From Fimbriimonas ginsengisoli Gsoil 348 (GTDB lineage Bacteria > Armatimonadota > Fimbriimonadia > Fimbriimonadales > Fimbriimonadaceae): DNA of 64,000 nt. This document shows positions 6,045 through 13,707 of the stretch, one piece after another. The stretch spans positions 62,001 to 126,000 of the forward strand of contig CAMCVK010000010.1 in assembly GCA_945881865.1 (NCBI GenBank), given 5' to 3'. The notes under the pieces were generated by a model. That model saw nothing but the letters and a program-made list of their open reading frames with translations. It made no database searches and was not told where the DNA came from. The translations under genes and the position numbers were made by a program. Within the stretch, counting starts at the first letter, position 1; each line of letters starts with the position of its first letter.

Positions 6045-6418
6045 TGAACTTGACGAGTGCGCGGACGACGTTCGTCTATGATGCGGTTGGAAACGTGCTT
6101 CAGAAATGGCATCAGGGTTCCGATCCGATCACGATGGCCTACGATGCCGCCCAGCGGTTGGTGACTTCGATGGATGGGCCGACGCTGGTGACGTTCACCT
6201 ACGATGCGAGCGGAAACTTGACAAATGAGAACCGGGGCGGAGTTCAGACGTCATATAGCTACGACAACGAGAATCGTCTTGCGGTTCAGACGGACCCAGA
6301 TGGTTCGAAGACGACGATGACCTACCAGCCGGATGGTCTTCGTCGAACGCGGAGGACGCCTTCGGTTCTCACGACGTTTGTTTGGGATGAAAAGAACTAC
6401 CTTGGAGAAGTGATCTAG
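6044..6418 (+). CDS. RHS/YD-repeat fragment, N-terminally truncated
   Basis: The ORF of 124 residues starts at ATG 6044, whose A is the last base of the dprE1 stop. It contains several YD/RHS repeats (FVYDAVGNV, TFTYDASGNL, YSYDNENRL) and ends at FVWDEKNYLGEVI, the strand that normally leads into the RHS core. A complete RHS protein would have a thousand or more residues upstream. The stop TAG comes 2 bases before the ATG of the core ORF, so shell and core are separate reading frames here. It may be a translated leader for cassette 1 or a decayed remnant. Confidence 0.7.
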   Translation: MNLTSARTTFVYDAVGNVLQKWHQGSDPITMAYDAAQRLVTSMDGPTLVTFTYDASGNLTNENRGGVQTSYSYDNENRLAVQTDPDGSKTTMTYQPDGLRRTRRTPSVLTTFVWDEKNYLGEVI

Positions 6419-6420
6419 TT

Positions 6421-7230
6421 ATGGCAATGGCGGCGGTTTACACGACGATTAACGGAATGCTGGTTCATGAGAGCCGGGGTGGGGTGGAGTCTTTCTACTT
6501 CCCGGACACTCTGGGCAACCTCACCACCGTTCGCAGCGCGACCGGTGTGAAGACCTACGGCGCTGAGTACTGGCCGTACGGAGAAATTCAGACCGAAACG
6601 GGCACTAACCCCAGCCCTTGGAGCTTCGTCGGTCTTCTCGGCTACCTGAGAGACACGGCAAGCCGCCTCTACGTCCGCGCCAGGCACTACCGCCCCGGCC
6701 TAGCCAGGTGGCAGACCGTCGATCCGCTCTGGCCGGATGAAAGCGCGTACGGGTACGCCAACGCGTCACCGGTTTACCTTCGAGACCCCAGCGGTCAGGC
6801 CTGTAGTGACCCGTGTGCAGATGATGGTTCGCCTGTTGGAGGCTGCATTGCCTTGTTTTGCTCGATAAAGGCGTCGTTCGACTCAATAAAGAAAGCCCTC
6901 GGGCTCAATGGAGAATGGGACAAACTCATCAAGAAAATTCTTGGGTTGATCAAGGAGACCAAAGACTTTGATCCTAGCGGTTGCTGTAAGCAAGCTCACT
7001 CGGGTGGCTTCCCCACCAGCAAAGGCGGGCTAATTGCTGCACTTATTGGATTCGTCTGCAGATCAACTAAGACAAAGGCACCGAACCCTCGGTGGTGTAA
7101 AAAACTCCATCCTGACGATACAGGGGACTCCGACCGACCCACATCGGCTGGCTCAGGATGCCGTGGTTGTTGCAACTCCATGTTTACTAGGGGCACTAGT
7201 CTGTATGCAACGTGCTTAAACGTATGCTGA
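6421..7230 (+). CDS. RHS core with Cys-rich C-terminal tip, cassette 1
   Basis: This 269-residue protein has an RHS core in residues ~8-112 (VHESRGGV, LYVRARHYRPGLARWQTVDP), a DPSG hinge near 122, then a unique tip of about 145 residues. The tip has around 17 Cys, an amphipathic Lys-rich helix near 150-175, a short hydrophobic segment (LIAALIGFVC) and a final Cys cluster, C-x2-CC followed by two spaced Cys. I know similar Cys clusters at the ends of RHS proteins but no activity. It lacks a signal peptide. Translation starts at ATG 6421 behind GGAGAAGTGATC, and it overlaps the next gene. Probably a toxin tip; its target is unknown. Confidence 0.8.
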   Translation: MAMAAVYTTINGMLVHESRGGVESFYFPDTLGNLTTVRSATGVKTYGAEYWPYGEIQTETGTNPSPWSFVGLLGYLRDTASRLYVRARHYRPGLARWQTVDPLWPDESAYGYANASPVYLRDPSGQACSDPCADDGSPVGGCIALFCSIKASFDSIKKALGLNGEWDKLIKKILGLIKETKDFDPSGCCKQAHSGGFPTSKGGLIAALIGFVCRSTKTKAPNPRWCKKLHPDDTGDSDRPTSAGSGCRGCCNSMFTRGTSLYATCLNVC

Positions 7231-7850
7231 GGCGACCCACTTGTAAAAAGAGCTTTGTGGTCCTTTTCGTGGGGCTTCAACTTGTCGCTTGTAGGACCGC
7301 GCCGGAGCCGTCTAAGAAACCGAATGCTCCTGAAGAGGTGGCAATGCTTGCAACCAGGGAGTTGAACAAGGCGATCGACGCTGGTGATCGGTCGTCTGCT
7401 GAGCTCGACCGGCTCCGTGATCAACTGTCACCTAAAATTGGCGATGAGACGCTGCGCGACATGCTGCTGGGATCGTACTCGGCTTCTGTGAAGAGGGACC
7501 TTACTGCGGCGTGGTATCCAGGGAGAGAAGCAAGGCTTGGGCCCAAATTCGTGGCGGAAGTCGTCGACAAAAATGACGGCAAAGTGGGATCTCTATTGCT
7601 CGCGTTTGCCGGTAGTTTCGTCGCAGGCGGAGGCCAATTCTCGGAGCCGATTACGGAAATCGTTGATGCGTATGCGAGATATAGAAAGAGATTTCCGACC
7701 GAATCTGGATCTGCTATTTCGTTACTTGCTTATGATGGGGGAGAGAAATCTCAAATTATTCTCAAAGAGATAAGCCTTACTGGATCTCCTGCGGCGAGAT
7801 CAGCAGCGAAAGCTGTGTTAACAAGAATAAAGACACAGGGCAAACTATAA
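7224..7850 (+). CDS. lipoprotein, candidate immunity protein for cassette 1
   Basis: About 208 residues with an N-terminal lipoprotein signal ending in the lipobox LVAC (Cys about residue 23), so it is probably anchored at a membrane facing the periplasm. The remainder is mostly helical and charged (many KxLDRLRD-like stretches) and may form a helical repeat fold. ATG 7224 overlaps the tip's stop codon (ATGCTGA), and GTG 7212 is an in-frame alternative. Tight coupling to the tip gene is what one expects of an immunity gene. I recognise no family. A periplasmic anchor would imply that the tip acts in the periplasm or envelope. Confidence 0.7.
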   Translation: MLRRPTCKKSFVVLFVGLQLVACRTAPEPSKKPNAPEEVAMLATRELNKAIDAGDRSSAELDRLRDQLSPKIGDETLRDMLLGSYSASVKRDLTAAWYPGREARLGPKFVAEVVDKNDGKVGSLLLAFAGSFVAGGGQFSEPITEIVDAYARYRKRFPTESGSAISLLAYDGGEKSQIILKEISLTGSPAARSAAKAVLTRIKTQGKL

Positions 7851-7865
7851 ATGAGCGGGCTCATT

Positions 7866-7968
7866 CGATGACCTACCAGCAGGATGGCCTTCGTCGAACG
7901 AGGAGGACGCCTTCGGTTCTCACGACGTTTGTTTGGGATGGAACGGACTACCTTCAGGAGAGAAGCTG
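7866..7968 (+). pseudogene. truncated RHS-repeat leader of cassette 2
   Basis: Positions 7866-7950 repeat the 3' end of the RHS fragment at 6318-6400 (MTYQxDGLRRTRRTPSVLTTFVWDGTDYL) without a start of its own. The copy breaks after GACTACCTT and is followed by AGGAGAG, a ribosome site 7 bases before the cassette 2 ATG. Confidence 0.65.
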
Positions 7969-8811
7969 ATGCCGGTTGCAACGTACACAACGATTAACGG
8001 GATGCTGGTTCATGAGAGCCGGGGCGGGGTGGAGTCTTTCTACTTCCCCGACACACTGGGCAGCCTCACGACGGTTCGCAGCGCGACCGGCGTAAAGACC
8101 TACGGTGCCGAGTATTGGCCGTACGGGGAGATCCAGACGGAAACGGGCACCAACCCCAGCCCCTGGAGCTTCGTTGGACTTCTTGGCTACCTGAGAGACA
8201 CGGCTTCCCGCCTCTACGTCCGCGCTAGGCACTACCGGCCAGGCCTGGCAAGATGGCAGACGGTCGATCCACTCTGGCCGGACGAGAGCGCCTACGGATA
8301 TGTAAATGAAAGTCCAATGGAGACTGTGGACGTGCAAGGGAGATGGCCAGAAAAGCCCCCGTTTTTCGAGATCTTCCCAAAACCACGATGGTGGCCCCGA
8401 CAGATTCCGTGGCCGGGCCATATTTCACCGATACCAGGAATATGGCCCGGGCCAAAGCATCGTCCACGGCCGGTTGGCGGCGGTAGAGCAAACTACGACA
8501 ACGGCTGGACGCCGGGGGATTTCGGCTATGGGAACTACTGCGGATACTGGCGGAATGGTAAGGTCCAACACTGCAAAGAAGCGGGTGAAATTGATTGTCT
8601 GGACAAAGCGTGCAAGAAGCATGACGATGACAACCCAGGCGTCATCGACTATATTCCTGGAAGGCATCATCGAACTCTATGCTTTTCCCTTGCAAAATGC
8701 TCTTGCGTATCGGAGTATCCAATGCCTGGCCGAGATCAAAACAACTGCCTCGTAGCGAGGAGCAAAATGATGGCCCTTTATTGTCTTCATGGAGCGATAG
8801 TTGTTTGGTGA
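7969..8811 (+). CDS. RHS core with phospholipase A2-like tip, cassette 2
   Basis: A 280-residue protein with start ATG 7969 behind AGGAGAG. The RHS core spans residues ~5-110, with a DVQG variant in place of the usual DPxG hinge. The tip begins with a proline/tryptophan-rich linker (PKPRWWPRQIPWPG), then a phospholipase A2-like region: calcium-loop-like YCGYWRNG, followed by the helix LDKACKKHDDD carrying the His-Asp pair, and further Cys that could form disulfides. This suggests cleavage of glycerophospholipids of a target membrane. The downstream ankyrin gene overlaps its stop. Fold and motif are convincing; activity is inferred. Confidence 0.8.
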   Translation: MPVATYTTINGMLVHESRGGVESFYFPDTLGSLTTVRSATGVKTYGAEYWPYGEIQTETGTNPSPWSFVGLLGYLRDTASRLYVRARHYRPGLARWQTVDPLWPDESAYGYVNESPMETVDVQGRWPEKPPFFEIFPKPRWWPRQIPWPGHISPIPGIWPGPKHRPRPVGGGRANYDNGWTPGDFGYGNYCGYWRNGKVQHCKEAGEIDCLDKACKKHDDDNPGVIDYIPGRHHRTLCFSLAKCSCVSEYPMPGRDQNNCLVARSKMMALYCLHGAIVVW

Positions 8812-9295
8812 CAAGCTGAAATACGTTCCCGTGCGGGCCCTCGCAATTACGTTTGCCATCATGGTCACGATCGTGCTCGTCCTCAGCCCGATACCAATGA
8901 ACAACACGCAGGCGCCACCACTAGCGATTGCGGCCGGGACGGGCAATGAGGCAGAGGTGCGTCGGCTGATCGCCGAAGGCGCGCAGCTAGACGTACAAGA
9001 CTTCGGGGGCAACACGCCCCTCTCCTATGCCGTTGGGACTGGCCATTTCAAAATTGCACAACTGCTGCTTGACAAAGGGGCCAATATGTACGTACGTAAT
9101 CGGCAGGGCATGACCGTTATCGAGAGACGACGGTGGCTCGCGAACGCTCGTCCCGACCTTCCGCAATACCGAGAGGATACGCTGTCGGACCGACGCGGAC
9201 TTGCATGGCTGCTTGCGGCGGAGAAGCGAATGAAGGCGCAAAAGTCGAAGACGCAGCCTCCGGAGATTAAGAAAATTGACGATTCTTCAAATTGA
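8801..9295 (+). CDS. membrane-anchored ankyrin-repeat protein, candidate immunity for cassette 2
   Basis: A 164-residue protein with one N-terminal transmembrane helix (~residues 11-30) and two or three ankyrin repeats (PLAIAAGTGNEAEVRRLI, TPLSYAVGTGHFKIAQLL). TTG 8801 has GGAG 6 bases upstream and overlaps the end of the tip gene by 11 bases. Ankyrin proteins are known immunity partners in polymorphic toxin systems, and an anchored repeat domain could bind a phospholipase tip at the periplasmic face. Its stop TGA (9293-9295) lies inside the next copy of the RHS-repeat sequence, so the cassette junction falls exactly at its end. Confidence 0.75.
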   Translation: MFGDKLKYVPVRALAITFAIMVTIVLVLSPIPMNNTQAPPLAIAAGTGNEAEVRRLIAEGAQLDVQDFGGNTPLSYAVGTGHFKIAQLLLDKGANMYVRNRQGMTVIERRRWLANARPDLPQYREDTLSDRRGLAWLLAAEKRMKAQKSKTQPPEIKKIDDSSN

Positions 9296-9485
9296 GAGCC
9301 GGGGCGGAGTTCAGACGTCTTATAGCTACGACAACGAGAATCGTCTTGCGGTTCAAACGGATCCAGATGGTTCGAAGACGACGATGACCTACCAGCCGGA
9401 TGGCCTTCGTCGAACGCGGAGGACGCCTTCGGTTCTCACGACGTTTGTTTGGGATGGAACGGACTACCTTGGAGAGGTGATCTAG
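9293..9485 (+). pseudogene. truncated RHS-repeat leader of cassette 3
   Basis: The segment repeats positions ~6226-6418 almost exactly (GGVQTSYSYDNENRL through WDGTDYLGEVI). It is open from a TTG at 9276 inside the ankyrin gene but has no credible start of its own. Its last codons GAG-GTG-ATC-TAG also form an extended ribosome binding site for cassette 3. Confidence 0.7.
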
Positions 9486-9487
9486 TT

Positions 9488-10372
9488 ATGGCGATGGCGG
9501 CGGTTTACACGACGATCAACGGGATGCTGGTTCATGAGAGCCGGGGTGGGGTGGAGTCTTTCTACTTCCCCGACACCCTGGGCAGCCTCACCACGGTTCG
9601 CAGCGCAACCGGCGTGAAGACCTATGGTGCCGAGTACTGGCCGTACGGCGAAATCCAAACCGAAACGGGCACGAACCCCAGCCCCTGGAGCTTCGTTGGG
9701 CTTCTCGGCTACCTGAGAGACACGGCTTCCCGTCTCTACGTCCGCGCTAGGCATTACCGCCCCGGCCTAGCCAGGTGGCAAACGGTAGATCCACTCTGGC
9801 CACGGCTCTCACCTTATGGCTACGGTCGCCTCCGTCCGGTCAGCGAAACCGATCCAAGTGGGCTTATTCCGGCGAATATTATTGCAGGGGTAATTGGGGG
9901 ACTTTTGAGTTGCCTCATCTCAGCAGGTATTTCCTGGATAGGCAGCCACCTTAAGGGGGAGGGCCCGGCGGAAGCGAACTGCAAAGCTGGAACAAAATGC
10001 GTTGCCAAGGGCCTTGGAACTGGGATCGGTATCGCTTCAATGAACCCGGCTCTCGCTTGCGCACTCTCGATAGCGTCGGAAGTGATTAGTTTGCTGGCCG
10101 ACGCCTTGTGCCCCCTTGCTGACGCGAAGTGCCCAAAGTTGCCGAGCCTATGCGACTTGACAAAGGCGGCAATATCAGGGGCAGGGGGTTGCTTAGGTTG
10201 GTTCGGGGCCAAAGACGGGGTGATCAGTCAAGTAGGTGAAATGCTTGGTTGGATCGGAAGAGAACTTGCGAAGTACGCGGGCGGAATTCTGGCTAGTTCG
10301 CTGGGCTCAATCATCTCCGGCTCCGGCAAGATTGCCTGCGACTGGGCGGGACCCGCATTCGGGAAGGGATGA
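9488..10372 (+). CDS. RHS core with glycine-rich membrane-active-type tip, cassette 3
   Basis: A 294-residue protein; the RHS core is in residues ~8-108 and a DPSG hinge near 122. The tip of about 170 residues is rich in Gly, Ala, Ile and Ser, with several hydrophobic stretches (IIAGVIGGLLSCLISAGISW, GILASSLGSIISGSG) and spaced Cys. This composition resembles pore-forming or membrane-inserting domains with glycine-zipper helices more than an enzyme. ATG 9488 follows GAGGTGATC. Its stop shares ATGA with the next gene, which encodes a multi-pass membrane protein. A membrane-acting tip with a membrane immunity protein is a sensible pairing, but inferred. Confidence 0.75.
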   Translation: MAMAAVYTTINGMLVHESRGGVESFYFPDTLGSLTTVRSATGVKTYGAEYWPYGEIQTETGTNPSPWSFVGLLGYLRDTASRLYVRARHYRPGLARWQTVDPLWPRLSPYGYGRLRPVSETDPSGLIPANIIAGVIGGLLSCLISAGISWIGSHLKGEGPAEANCKAGTKCVAKGLGTGIGIASMNPALACALSIASEVISLLADALCPLADAKCPKLPSLCDLTKAAISGAGGCLGWFGAKDGVISQVGEMLGWIGRELAKYAGGILASSLGSIISGSGKIACDWAGPAFGKG

Positions 10373-10785
10373 GCTTAATTGTTCGTAGGGAGTGGGCTTG
10401 GATTCTTTCTTCCATTTTCTATTGGTGCGGAATCAGTGTCATTTTTTTCGCAACTTATAGTCACTCTCAACCATGGAGTGCGAAGCAACTCATTTTTCCC
10501 GGAGTCGTTGTATTCACAACTTCCGTCGTGATCGCTGCGATCGGCATCGCGAGCCGAGCGTTCGCTCGTATAGCTCTCAGCTTAGGGATGGTGGTGGTGC
10601 TTGCGATCGGCGTGGGGCAAGGCACTCCAATCCCGCCCAATGCTTGGGTTCTGGCAACTTGTCTTTTGGCAGGTGGCTGGATGTTTGAAGTTTGCGATTT
10701 TGGAAATTCTATCGCAAAAAATTCAGTTTCTCGATCACATGAAAGACAAAAGATGGCGTATGACGACAACGTACACGACGATTAA
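10369..10785 (+). CDS. four-helix membrane protein, candidate immunity for cassette 3
   Basis: A 138-residue protein with about four transmembrane helices (near 10-29, 42-62, 70-86 and 92-107), no signal peptide and no family I recognise. It starts by ATGA overlap with the tip gene. Its last ~10 codons (AYDDNVHDD) run through the start of cassette 4 in another frame, so the original C-terminus was probably replaced when cassette 4 was joined. Base composition is clearly AT-richer than the flanking chromosome. Expected to sit in the inner membrane and block the tip's insertion or pore. Confidence 0.7.
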   Translation: MSLIVRREWAWILSSIFYWCGISVIFFATYSHSQPWSAKQLIFPGVVVFTTSVVIAAIGIASRAFARIALSLGMVVVLAIGVGQGTPIPPNAWVLATCLLAGGWMFEVCDFGNSIAKNSVSRSHERQKMAYDDNVHDD

Positions 10786-11554
10786 CGGGATGCTGGTTCA
10801 TGAGAGCCGGGGTGGGGTGGAGTCTTTCTACTTCCCCGACACCCTGGGCAGCCTCACCACGGTTCGCAGCGCGACCGGTGTGAAGACCTACGGTGCTGAA
10901 TACTGGCCGTACGGGGAGATCCAGACCGAGACGGGAACAAACCCCAGCCCTTGGAGCTTCGTAGGGCTTCTTGGCTACCTGAGGGACACGGCAAGCCGCA
11001 TCTACGTCAGGGCAAGGCACTACCGCCCTGGCCTAGCCAGATGGCAAACGGTTGATCCACTGTGGCCGGGGGAAAGTGCGTATGGATACGTCGGGCAGCA
11101 GCCAGTTTATCGAGTTGATCCGACGGGAATGGGCGACAAATGTTTCATTGATGATATATGGCAGTGGCTAGTGCCAAAGGGAATTCCCCAGGCCCCGATC
11201 GTGATGCCTGATTGGTTAAGGCCACTACGACACTTTGGCGAAGTGACTAACTTCAACTATTTTAAGTGGAAGTGGGGCAATTGCTGTGGGCTAGATCAGA
11301 AATGCGGTCCGGCAAAATCTAATGGATCGTGCGCGGATAACGCCTGCGAAAAGCACGACAAATGTGTTGGACCAGACTTCTTCCCGGGGGCGGCCAACTG
11401 GCGGTCGTGTGCAGCGGGTCTGTGCTCTGACTTGAAGAAATGCTACAAAAAGAACGGGTGTGCTAGCCAGGTGACGCCTTCAAGCGAGTGCCAAGCTGCT
11501 TGGGAAGCCGGTGTTTTCTTTTGCATGCAAGCCGGGATGGTATTTGAGTCTTAA
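10760..11554 (+). CDS. RHS core with phospholipase A2-like tip, cassette 4
   Basis: A 264-residue protein. The RHS core starts almost at once (TTTYTTINGML) with a DPTG hinge near residue 122. The tip carries a second, different phospholipase A2-like region: GNCCGLDQKCG as a possible calcium loop, then ADNACEKHDKCVG with the classical C-x3-H-D-x-C arrangement, plus many other Cys. The ATG at 10760 lies within the end of the preceding immunity gene; ATG 10739 is an alternative. No strong ribosome site is visible, unlike the other cassettes, and no RHS-repeat leader remains. Overlaps the downstream membrane protein. Confidence 0.78.
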   Translation: MTTTYTTINGMLVHESRGGVESFYFPDTLGSLTTVRSATGVKTYGAEYWPYGEIQTETGTNPSPWSFVGLLGYLRDTASRIYVRARHYRPGLARWQTVDPLWPGESAYGYVGQQPVYRVDPTGMGDKCFIDDIWQWLVPKGIPQAPIVMPDWLRPLRHFGEVTNFNYFKWKWGNCCGLDQKCGPAKSNGSCADNACEKHDKCVGPDFFPGAANWRSCAAGLCSDLKKCYKKNGCASQVTPSSECQAAWEAGVFFCMQAGMVFES

Positions 11555-11846
11555 GCAACGGCTAAAGAAGTGGCTCGTTCCTGCAGGCATCGGGCTCGTG
11601 TTCCCCGGCTGTGTACTGGCCTACGAGCTTTCAGGCATCGATCCATTTGGAGTCTTTCTTGTTATGGTTTGTAGTCTGACGGTGAGCCCAATCACCATAA
11701 TTTGGGAGGCCAGGTTTATGCTCACTAAGTGTGAGCCAGGAGCTGACATTGTAATTCCTGTTTTAGCAATCTTTGCAAATACAGTTCTGCTTGTCGTAAG
11801 CCTTGTCGGATTTGGTTTTCTGGGCGCGACGGGGAGAGGGCATTGA
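11544..11846 (+). CDS. small membrane protein, candidate immunity for cassette 4
   Basis: About 100 residues from TTG 11544 (GTG 11511 gives 111), with three hydrophobic segments (LVPAGIGLVFPGCVL, VFLVMVCSLTVSPITII, VLAIFANTVLLVVSLVGFGF). The start overlaps the end of the cassette 4 tip by 11 bases, with GGGATGG upstream. No family is recognised. Position predicts immunity against the phospholipase-like tip; its small size and topology differ from the ankyrin partner of the other phospholipase-like tip. Confidence 0.62.
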   Translation: MSLKQRLKKWLVPAGIGLVFPGCVLAYELSGIDPFGVFLVMVCSLTVSPITIIWEARFMLTKCEPGADIVIPVLAIFANTVLLVVSLVGFGFLGATGRGH

Positions 11847-11870: not shown

Positions 11871-11950
11871 TTCGTCGAACGAGGAGGACGCCTTCGGTTC
11901 TCACGACGTTTGTTTGGGATGGAACGGACTACCTTGGAGAGGTGATCTAG
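11871..11950 (+). pseudogene. truncated RHS-repeat leader of cassette 5
   Basis: The segment copies the last ~80 bases of the RHS-repeat fragment (RRTRRTPSVLTTFVWDGTDYLGEVI) right after the cassette 4 immunity gene, with no start of its own. GAGGTGATCTAG at its end again serves as ribosome site for the core ORF. Confidence 0.68.
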
Positions 11951-11952
11951 TT

Positions 11953-12816
11953 ATGGCAATGGCGGCGGTTTACACCACGGTTAACGGGATGCTGGTTCAT
12001 GAGAGCCGGGGTGGGGTTGAGTCTTTCTACTTCCCCGACACCCTGGGCAGCCTTACGACAGTCCGCAGCGCGACCGGCGTGAAGACCTACGGTGCCGAGT
12101 ACTGGCCGTATGGGGAGATCCAAACCGAAACGGGCACCAACCCAAGTCCATGGAGCTTTGTTGGGCTCTACGGATATCTCAGAGACACGGCTTCTCGCCT
12201 CTACGTCCGCGCCAGGCACTACCGGCCCGGACTGGCCAGGTGGCAGACCGTCGACCCGCTTTGGCCAGATGAAAGTGCGTATGGGTACGTCGGTAATGAC
12301 CCGAGCAGAGGCGTCGATCCAGCAGGGTATCAAAAGCTTCCGCCTAAGAAGACGAAGCTTGGGCCGACGATATGCTCTTCTCGAGTCAAAGATGTGGAGA
12401 ATCAACTGGCGGCAAGTTGTAACACGCCGGGCATGGGCGGATATTTCAGAAAGTGCATTGGCCAATATTTGCCACCTGGTAGTAATCCTGATTGCGGAGC
12501 ACATAATGGTGGGCATGGCTTCTCTGGTATTCTCTGGTCAGGTTGCTGTGAGCAAATCATGATCGATTTGTGCAATCTTATGTCCAAACGGCTGCCTCCA
12601 AAACAAGCGCATTTCCCACCTCCTCCCGAATACGTCATTCCAGCTTGTTTGGACAAAATGATAAGAGACCTAAATGGGGGCAAAAACCCAATCTCGGATT
12701 GTGTAACCGTCGGCCGCCCCTTGCGAAAAGGGGAGTGCCCGCCAGGATACTACTGGGTGCAACAGGACTGTTGCAGGGGTCACTGCGCTGAGGGCTCGTT
12801 TATGTGGCCGAGGTAA
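11953..12816 (+). CDS. RHS core with Cys/Pro-rich tip of unknown activity, cassette 5
   Basis: A 287-residue protein; the RHS core is in residues ~8-108 (with LYGYLRD where others have LLGYLRD) and a DPAG hinge near 122. The ~165-residue tip has about 14 Cys, a His/Gly patch (CGAHNGGHGFSGILWSGCC) that could be catalytic or metal-binding, a Pro-rich stretch and an end rich in Cys. I do not recognise a family. Start ATG 11953 lies behind GAGGTGATC. The downstream gene starts 30 bases after its stop, the only cassette without overlap. Confidence 0.75.
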   Translation: MAMAAVYTTVNGMLVHESRGGVESFYFPDTLGSLTTVRSATGVKTYGAEYWPYGEIQTETGTNPSPWSFVGLYGYLRDTASRLYVRARHYRPGLARWQTVDPLWPDESAYGYVGNDPSRGVDPAGYQKLPPKKTKLGPTICSSRVKDVENQLAASCNTPGMGGYFRKCIGQYLPPGSNPDCGAHNGGHGFSGILWSGCCEQIMIDLCNLMSKRLPPKQAHFPPPPEYVIPACLDKMIRDLNGGKNPISDCVTVGRPLRKGECPPGYYWVQQDCCRGHCAEGSFMWPR

Positions 12817-12846: not shown

Positions 12847-13377
12847 ATGGCAATCAGCATGAAGAATCCTAGGACTCGTGGATGGGTCGTTACGATGGGC
12901 ATCCTGTTTTTCATCGTCGCATCATTTTCAGCTGGAAAGGAGTGGTTTCGACTTGGCCACGGCTACCAGCTCGATACATTGCGGCTGAGGAAAACGTCCG
13001 TAAGGGGGGATGGCTTCACACATGTTTTGGGGCCCGTTCTCTCCGTCGCAGCAAATGGCCAAATGGATGTATTCACGATGCAATCCAGAACTGCGGGTTC
13101 GAGAGGCGAGATCCAATATGCGAGCGGACCTCCCATTGAATACCGACTCAGAGCGGTCGAGGCGAAATGGGAGTCTGACCTGAAGTTCCCTAACACGATC
13201 CAATTGGACACCCGAGACGCACTGACAATCACGCCAGACATTCTATCGGATACCAAATTGGCTCCCGATGGCTCTCTCACGGCGCGCTGCCGGGGATACT
13301 ATTTTGTGGGCATGCTGTGGCTGAAGAACCCAAGGCAAATGCCAGAAGGGGGATATATTTCTATCATAATGCATTAA
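12847..13377 (+). CDS. exported or membrane-anchored protein, candidate immunity for cassette 5
   Basis: A 176-residue protein with one N-terminal hydrophobic helix (~residues 13-30), then a mixed alpha/beta domain of about 145 residues and no lipobox. ATG 12847 is used here; ATG 12859 is in frame. It follows the cassette 5 tip by 30 bases. Like the partners of cassettes 1 and 2, its soluble part should face the periplasm, which supports an envelope site of action for these tips. No family is recognised. Confidence 0.62.
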   Translation: MAISMKNPRTRGWVVTMGILFFIVASFSAGKEWFRLGHGYQLDTLRLRKTSVRGDGFTHVLGPVLSVAANGQMDVFTMQSRTAGSRGEIQYASGPPIEYRLRAVEAKWESDLKFPNTIQLDTRDALTITPDILSDTKLAPDGSLTARCRGYYFVGMLWLKNPRQMPEGGYISIIMH

Positions 13378-13707
13378 GCTATGCAGGTTGGTCAACATGC
13401 TATGACAATAGTTCAAGTCGGTTACAAGGTACACGACGATTAACGGGATGCTGGCTCATCATTCTCTTTCTCGTGGTGCTCCACGCCAGGCACCTTTCGA
13501 GCCAATCGTAAACCCGGCAGACAGATCATGCACACCTAAACCCGGGCCGCTTTGCGCTCGCAAGGCCCCTCATTTTCGGGCCGCTTCCCTGCCCTGCAAA
13601 CAAGGGAGAAACTTGCTCCCCCAAGCCTTGCCGCACTCAGCGTCCGGGTTCTTTCGGTAGGCATGACGCCGGGCAATTCCGCTCGGCAAAACCGAAAGGA
13701 ATCCGCT
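13378..13707. other. intergenic junction with remnants, right border of RHS block
   Basis: The stretch holds the 31-base RHS-core remnant (13429-13459) and then about 250 bases without a convincing gene. GC-rich inverted-looking runs (GGGCCGC...) lie near 13545-13590. An A+G-rich AAAGGAAT precedes ATG 13708. Confidence 0.55.
13429..13459 (+). repeat. remnant of a sixth RHS core
   Basis: These 31 bases match the start of the core (codons for YTTINGMLVH) with one mismatch and then stop abruptly. This shows that a further cassette once followed, or that recombination ended here. Confidence 0.8.

Follow-up and report, generated by a model that had tools for sequence, protein, structure and literature searches.

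The window analyzed here, a 64,000-nucleotide stretch of the Fimbriimonas ginsengisoli Gsoil 348 genome, contains an array of five cassettes between positions 6045 and 13377, every one of them on the plus strand. Each cassette consists of an open reading frame (ORF) of ~265 to 295 amino acids (aa), in which an RHS-associated core is joined to a distinct cysteine-rich tip, followed by a partner gene. In a search with the NCBIfam models, TIGR03696 scored above its cut-off in all five cassettes. The cores are near-copies of one another (67 to 95% DNA identity in ungapped windows), and Cys makes up 5 to 9% of the array tips. The features of the array, with the evidence for each, are as follows.

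6045..6420, plus strand: remnant of an RHS shell ORF, which terminates YLGEVI-stop directly 5′ of cassette 1
6421..7230, plus strand: cassette 1, RHS core and Cys-rich tip (ORF, TIGR03696, Cys content)
7212..7850, plus strand: partner 1, with a lipoprotein-like N terminus (ORF, sequence inspection)
7969..8811, plus strand: cassette 2, RHS-associated core and PLA2-like tip 2, 280 aa (ORF, TIGR03696 E 2e-10)
8485..8808, plus strand: PLA2-like domain of tip 2, YGNYCG ... DCLDKACKKHD ... C ... C (family alignment, PDB profile)
8801..9295, plus strand: partner 2, putative immunity protein with ankyrin repeats and a hydrophobic anchor at the N terminus (Pfam Ank_5 E 8e-12)
9488..10372, plus strand: cassette 3, RHS core and hydrophobic Cys-rich tip (ORF, TIGR03696)
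10369..10785, plus strand: partner 3, polytopic membrane protein (ORF, sequence)
10760..11554, plus strand: cassette 4, RHS-associated core and PLA2-like tip 4, 264 aa (ORF, TIGR03696 E 1e-11)
11240..11551, plus strand: PLA2-like domain of tip 4, GNCCG ... SCADNACEKHDKC ... (family alignment, PDB profile)
11511..11846, plus strand: partner 4, 111 aa with three hydrophobic segments (at 22, 43, and 76), putative immunity protein
11953..12816, plus strand: cassette 5, RHS core and Cys-rich tip (ORF, TIGR03696)
12847..13377, plus strand: partner 5, with an N-terminal hydrophobic segment (ORF, sequence inspection)

Three smaller features of the array deserve mention. At 10750-10785, the last 26 nucleotides of partner 3 overlap the start of cassette 4 in a different frame, as if the two had been fused at a recombination breakpoint. 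Downstream of partner 5, at 13432-13460, lies what remains of the start of a sixth cassette (GTACACGACGATTAACGGGATGCTGG), a truncated core copy that suggests a lost or truncated cassette. Tips 1 and 5 (within 6421-7230 and 11953-12816) contain 8 to 9% Cys and CC-rich motifs (GCRGCCNSMF; SGCCEQ and DCCRGHC); they gave no match to any family model and are possibly further disulfide-rich enzymes.

An earlier note on this DNA had picked out phospholipase A2 (PLA2)-like motifs in tips 2 and 4, and these motifs are present and in frame. In tip 2, YCGYWRNG occupies 8536-8559 and DKACKKHDDD 8602-8631, with the His codon at 8620-8622 and the Asp codon at 8623-8625. In tip 4, GNCCGLDQKCG begins at 11276 and DNACEKHDKC occupies 11336-11365, with His at 11354-11356 and Asp at 11357-11359. 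The pattern CG-x(8-40)-D-x-x-C-x-x-H-D is rare by chance, appearing 38 and 32 times per 200,000 shuffles of tips 2 and 4, respectively. Both window tips have Ala in place of the first Cys in the canonical CC pair (AC before xxHD), and the Cys after HD is absent from tip 2; CC before xxHD is present in L064 and in distant family members. The DPxG hinge from which the note had counted its tips holds for cassette 4 (DPTG) but not for cassette 2 (DVQG).

The two tips had been regarded as different PLA2-like domains that share little else. Direct similarity between them is low (only ~24% identity and a weak blastp E value of 4e-3), but a chain of blastp matches leads through intermediates from tip 2 to L041 (3e-25), from L041 to L037 (1e-16), and from L037 to tip 4 (2e-20); L037, L035, L042, and L041 are the same loci as L063, L064, L065, and L066. 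The tip 2 and tip 4 clades are sisters on the tip tree. Because intermediates join them, tips 2 and 4 are, as judged from sequence, divergent sister clades of one PLA2-like family and not representatives of two.

A search of related genomes with tip 4 returned clear relatives together with tip 2-like sequences, and named records place relatives in Fimbriimonadaceae and other Armatimonadota. A narrower alignment, used as a query against genome contigs, found four loci, and the family profile gave 35 matches in 27 of 291 Armatimonadota genomes. Tip 4 had no relative among the viral contigs searched, and a tip 4-like relative used as query retrieved nothing among the plasmids searched. The Cys, His, and Asp of the C..HD motif are invariant in all 34 aligned Armatimonadota members, window tips included, and the calcium-loop CG is present in all 33 members whose alignment covers the region; this invariance is partly a selection effect, as members were recruited by family similarity, in a search that did not require these columns. 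The conservation of His-Asp in homologues, on which the earlier proposal had depended, was thus found throughout. In L063, L064, and L038, a tip 4-like PLA2 domain ends ORFs of ~600 to 680 aa that are unlike ordinary RHS shells, and the tip therefore appears to move between carriers.

Family profiles tie these sequences to PLA2s. Searched against the PDB, a profile of 14 tips gave 49 matches at E ≤ 10, all of them PLA2s or PLA2 homologues, with rice PLA2 as the best (E 1.5e-5); with an 18-sequence profile, the best 60 of 123 matches were all PLA2s or homologues, again headed by rice PLA2 (E 2.1e-8). The Pfam model Phospholip_A2_1 (PF00068) is matched weakly by 13 of the 18 members (best 8.5e-6), whereas the window tips, taken singly, matched no PLA2 model in the Pfam, NCBIfam, or PDB searches. 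Tip 2 also gave a phmmer match to PLC-gamma, which was rejected as short and due to chance. In the alignment to the plant enzyme, YG-x-x-CG corresponds to the calcium loop and D-x-x-C-x-x-HD to the catalytic helix. AlphaFold models of both tips, built from six sequences, were of low confidence (mean pLDDT about 60), and Foldseek returned no significant match for either of these models. When the Foldseek candidates were re-ranked, rice PLA2 came first for both (Z 7.0 over 88 residues and Z 6.5 over 91), scores that are middling alone and take their weight from agreement with the sequence result. The models do not contradict the PLA2 helix arrangement that structure prediction had been expected to reveal but are too weak to prove it. 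The view that both tips are PLA2-like and have unlike partners is supported by the profile searches, by the catalytic residues that do not vary in homologues, and by the conservation of tip/partner pairing.

These results support the placement of tips 2 and 4 in the secreted PLA2 superfamily, a claim made for the superfamily and not for groups I, II, or XI. With the secreted calcium-dependent PLA2s (PF00068; the rice enzyme, 2wg7-2wg9, is the nearest solved), the tips share the YG-x-x-CG loop followed by the D-x-x-C-x-x-HD helix in a disulfide-rich domain of ~100 aa. They differ in having AC in place of CC, in being bacterial and fused to an RHS core, in a middle region of their own, and in falling below Pfam thresholds. 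It is very improbable that the HD/Cys pattern is a coincidence in Cys-rich sequences of some other fold: while the window tips lack single-sequence matches and their models are of low confidence, the two profiles retrieve PLA2s alone among the matches listed, and several distant members match the Pfam PLA2 model by themselves. We also consider it unlikely that the tips have a PLA2 fold but are not enzymes, binding a membrane or a receptor instead, with the partner as a docking protein. The AC that both tips have instead of CC, and the absence of a Cys after HD from tip 2, would fit such a function, as would the non-enzymatic PLA2 homologues among the PDB matches, but neither His-Asp nor the CG loop varies across very divergent members, as selection on catalysis predicts.

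The partners of the two tips are unlike each other, as the earlier note had described. The product of the gene 3′ of tip 2 has a hydrophobic N-terminal segment followed by ankyrin repeats, and that of the gene 3′ of tip 4 is a small protein with three hydrophobic segments. L065 and L066, the nearest relatives of tip 2, also adjoin N-anchored ankyrin partners; Pfam Ank is above cut-off in all three partners, the ankyrin parts of which are 27 to 36% identical. In the tip 4 clade (tip 4, L034, L036, L038, L063, and L064), the partners are ~92 to 113 aa long with two or three hydrophobic segments. Among these, the partners of L063 and L064 match each other at E 2e-8 and those of L034 and L036 at E 2e-4; homology across the whole group is only hinted at, because the best match of partner 4 is the L063 partner at E 0.03. 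Most other AC..HD members have two-segment partners of 77 to 100 aa, and the distant CC..HD members mostly have N-anchored partners of ~300 aa. Pfam PD40 (a WD40-like beta-propeller) is above cut-off only in the partners of L108, L111, and L113, all N-anchored; for L098, L107, L109, L110, L101 (second), and L114, the propeller-type label on the tree was given by length and N-terminal anchor only. Partner assignment is uncertain at L075, L100, L103, L104, and L112, where several ORFs compete.

Partner classes track the tip phylogeny, and the pairing of tip and partner is conserved. The three classes needed 7 changes on the tip tree, compared with an average of 10.7 when labels were shuffled; none of 200 shuffles came as low, and near-copies contribute to this clustering. 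The ankyrin clade (three members; support 85/28) is sister to the small-membrane-protein clade (six members). The natural comparison of two putative lipid-attacking tips with different partners that had been hoped for is real, and it is better than stated because both tips sit within one enzyme family.

Almost throughout, the partners are predicted to be polytopic or N-anchored, and because of this membrane association we favor, with a probability of roughly 70%, the reading that the tips are PLA2-like toxins acting outside the cytoplasm and that the adjoining genes encode membrane-held cognate immunity proteins, both the activity and the protection being putative. This reading draws on the sequence family, the invariant catalytic residues, the conserved pairing with its fit to the tip tree, and the predicted membrane association. 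The steps that we infer, from delivery and site of action through enzymatic activity and substrate to protection by the partner, would be the following. RHS-core cassettes with their own start codon would carry the tips, and each tip, delivered to a rival cell but not into its cytoplasm, would fold with disulfides. Calcium would be held by the loop around CG together with the Asp of C..HD, and the His of the HD pair would activate water, leading to cleavage of membrane phospholipids. The gene directly 3′ of each tip would supply a cognate immunity protein that blocks the tip at the producer's membrane, with tip 2 countered by an anchored ankyrin solenoid and tip 4 by a small three-helix membrane protein.

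Membrane-anchored partners also accompany seven of the eight non-PLA2 cassettes examined. Anchoring is therefore not specific to PLA2 tips, which suggests an extracytoplasmic site of action for this toxin system as a whole. This bears on the idea that the tips and partners are intracellular toxin-antitoxin pairs like the orphan Rhs toxins of Salmonella (PMC7043789). That precedent would agree with such pairs, and so would the start that each cassette has for itself and the close setting of toxin gene and partner gene, but Cys-rich tips and anchored or polytopic partners suit extracytoplasmic action better than a reducing cytoplasm, and we regard the idea as quite unlikely. Delivery is the weak point of the favored extracytoplasmic reading, as the cassettes have no evident signal peptide and neither an intact RHS shell like those of relatives nor a gene for a phage sheath was found in the assembly of this genome (98% complete, 26 contigs).

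The RHS carrier itself is split. The YD-repeat shell is not in the same polypeptide as the tips: the window cassettes comprise core only, and the shell ORF is separate in most relatives examined. Relatives L117, L119, and L121 have intact RHS-repeat ORFs of 1,072 to 1,245 aa. The relatives' shell ORFs terminate at a fixed point, VWDGxDYLxE..stop, and a core-tip ORF with its own start begins at once. We collected 31 junctions, from loci that are related to each other and not an unbiased sample, of which 4 were contiguous and 27 split. The core-tip start of 24 split junctions lies no more than 1 nucleotide before or 4 nucleotides after the point where the stop codon ends, and a Shine-Dalgarno-like tetramer is found 5′ of 23 starts (background, 11%), mostly inside the last codons of the shell. 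Split junctions lie in the window at 6390-6440, 7940-7990, 9460-9510, and 11930-11970 and in the relatives at L117:4990, L119:4611, and L121:19870. In cassette 2, the ATG shares bases with the TGA that ends the RHS fragment upstream of it and is served by the Shine-Dalgarno sequence AGGAG. Programmed frameshifting at the junction was rejected because shell and core-tip ORFs do not stand in a constant frame (+2 in 16 junctions, +1 in 10, and in frame in 1).

These junctions are relevant to whether the cassettes are expressed where they stand. A silent store, in which the tips would be unexpressed here and become active only after recombination into a full RHS gene, has been proposed for the orphan rhs modules of enterobacteria, and it is compatible with the tips being PLA2 toxins. 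The window holds only fragments of RHS shells in an assembly without an intact shell of that kind, and the likeness of the cores in DNA, along with the sixth, truncated core copy near 13432-13459, also accords with a store. Set against it are start codons that belong to the cassettes themselves, most of them with a Shine-Dalgarno-like site, and the conservation of this junction across genera; the intact partners, which lie on the same strand with little spacing; and the draft state of the assembly, in whose 26 contigs a shell may be missed. We judge a silent store to be a serious possibility that falls well short of even odds. Our tentative proposal, which we hold at slightly less than an even chance, is an Armatimonadota split RHS weapon. 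Its shell polypeptide, of ~1,080 to 1,250 aa, would stop at a fixed point, with its final codons doubling as the ribosome-binding site from which a separate core-tip ORF is translated; toxin-immunity cassettes could then be kept in stock, expressed, and exchanged as self-contained units. Within this system, a single PLA2 family would have partners of three or more unrelated membrane-anchored folds (small polytopic, ankyrin, and beta-propeller). If functional, the split junction would be a simple genetic device for warhead swapping.

The arrangement resembles known systems in part. Orphan Rhs-CT/immunity modules (PMC3967940, PMC7043789) likewise comprise displaced RHS core-tip cassettes and immunity genes (putative here), but in Armatimonadota the core-tip ORFs start independently, at a stop/start junction that is conserved, and in relatives they also lie directly 3′ of intact shells. 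In Tc toxins, TcB and TcC (PMC11067744) form a two-polypeptide RHS cocoon with the variable toxin on the second polypeptide, a division to which the separate shell and core-tip ORFs of Armatimonadota may correspond. The Armatimonadota split falls just 5′ of the RHS-associated core, with about 120 to 130 aa left before the hinge; in TcC, ~680 residues precede the toxin.

RHS proteins that end in a PLA2 tip are known as a kind. In the Tox-PLA2 class of polymorphic toxins (Zhang et al. 2012, PMC3482391), a PLA2 fold is likewise predicted for the C-terminal tip of RHS proteins; the class is described with the motif CxxHxxxYxN and PDB 1kp4, and no immunity protein is listed for it. The window tips, with CKKHDDDNPG and CEKHDKCVGP, do not have this motif; the present family has CxxHD, followed in most members by xC as in plant and animal enzymes, and it has partners. 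The open-licence literature that we searched held no account of RHS toxins in Fimbriimonas or of this pairing of PLA2 tip and partner.

For the ankyrin partner there is a precedent, with a crystal structure, in Tli of Enterobacter cloacae, an ankyrin-repeat lipoprotein that neutralizes a phospholipase effector acting in the periplasm (PMC11470151). As in the Tle/Tli pair, a phospholipase would here be opposed outside the cytoplasm by a membrane-anchored ankyrin-repeat protein, the immunity role of partner 2 being putative; this makes the ankyrin partner plausible but not in itself new. Tle differs in being a Ser alpha/beta-hydrolase of unrelated fold that is delivered by the T6SS, and Tli has six ankyrin repeats. 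Imm-Ank immunity is also known for other toxins, and ankyrin repeats beside a toxin are shared by the window, L065, and L066, again with a putative role in immunity; according to the 2012 survey, beta-propellers had not been seen among immunity proteins (PMC3482391). The tip/partner pairs are thus candidates for two gaps in that survey, immunity to PLA2 tips and beta-propeller immunity. One enzyme family with unrelated candidate immunity proteins in a single array may also help to explain how toxins switch immunity partners and how phospholipase toxins are neutralized.

Further RHS genes occur elsewhere in the same genome. G000:C11 (L125:6002-7504) carries a core-tip ORF that again stands by itself and has a lipoprotein-like partner, and G000:C9 (L124:3673-5191) has a 420-aa RHS-repeat ORF followed by another gene. 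In three genomes, a gene with a NifU_N domain (Pfam E 1e-20 to 1e-22) lies 5′ of the RHS locus, at L117:1154-1507, L119:726-1127, and L121:9132-9518.
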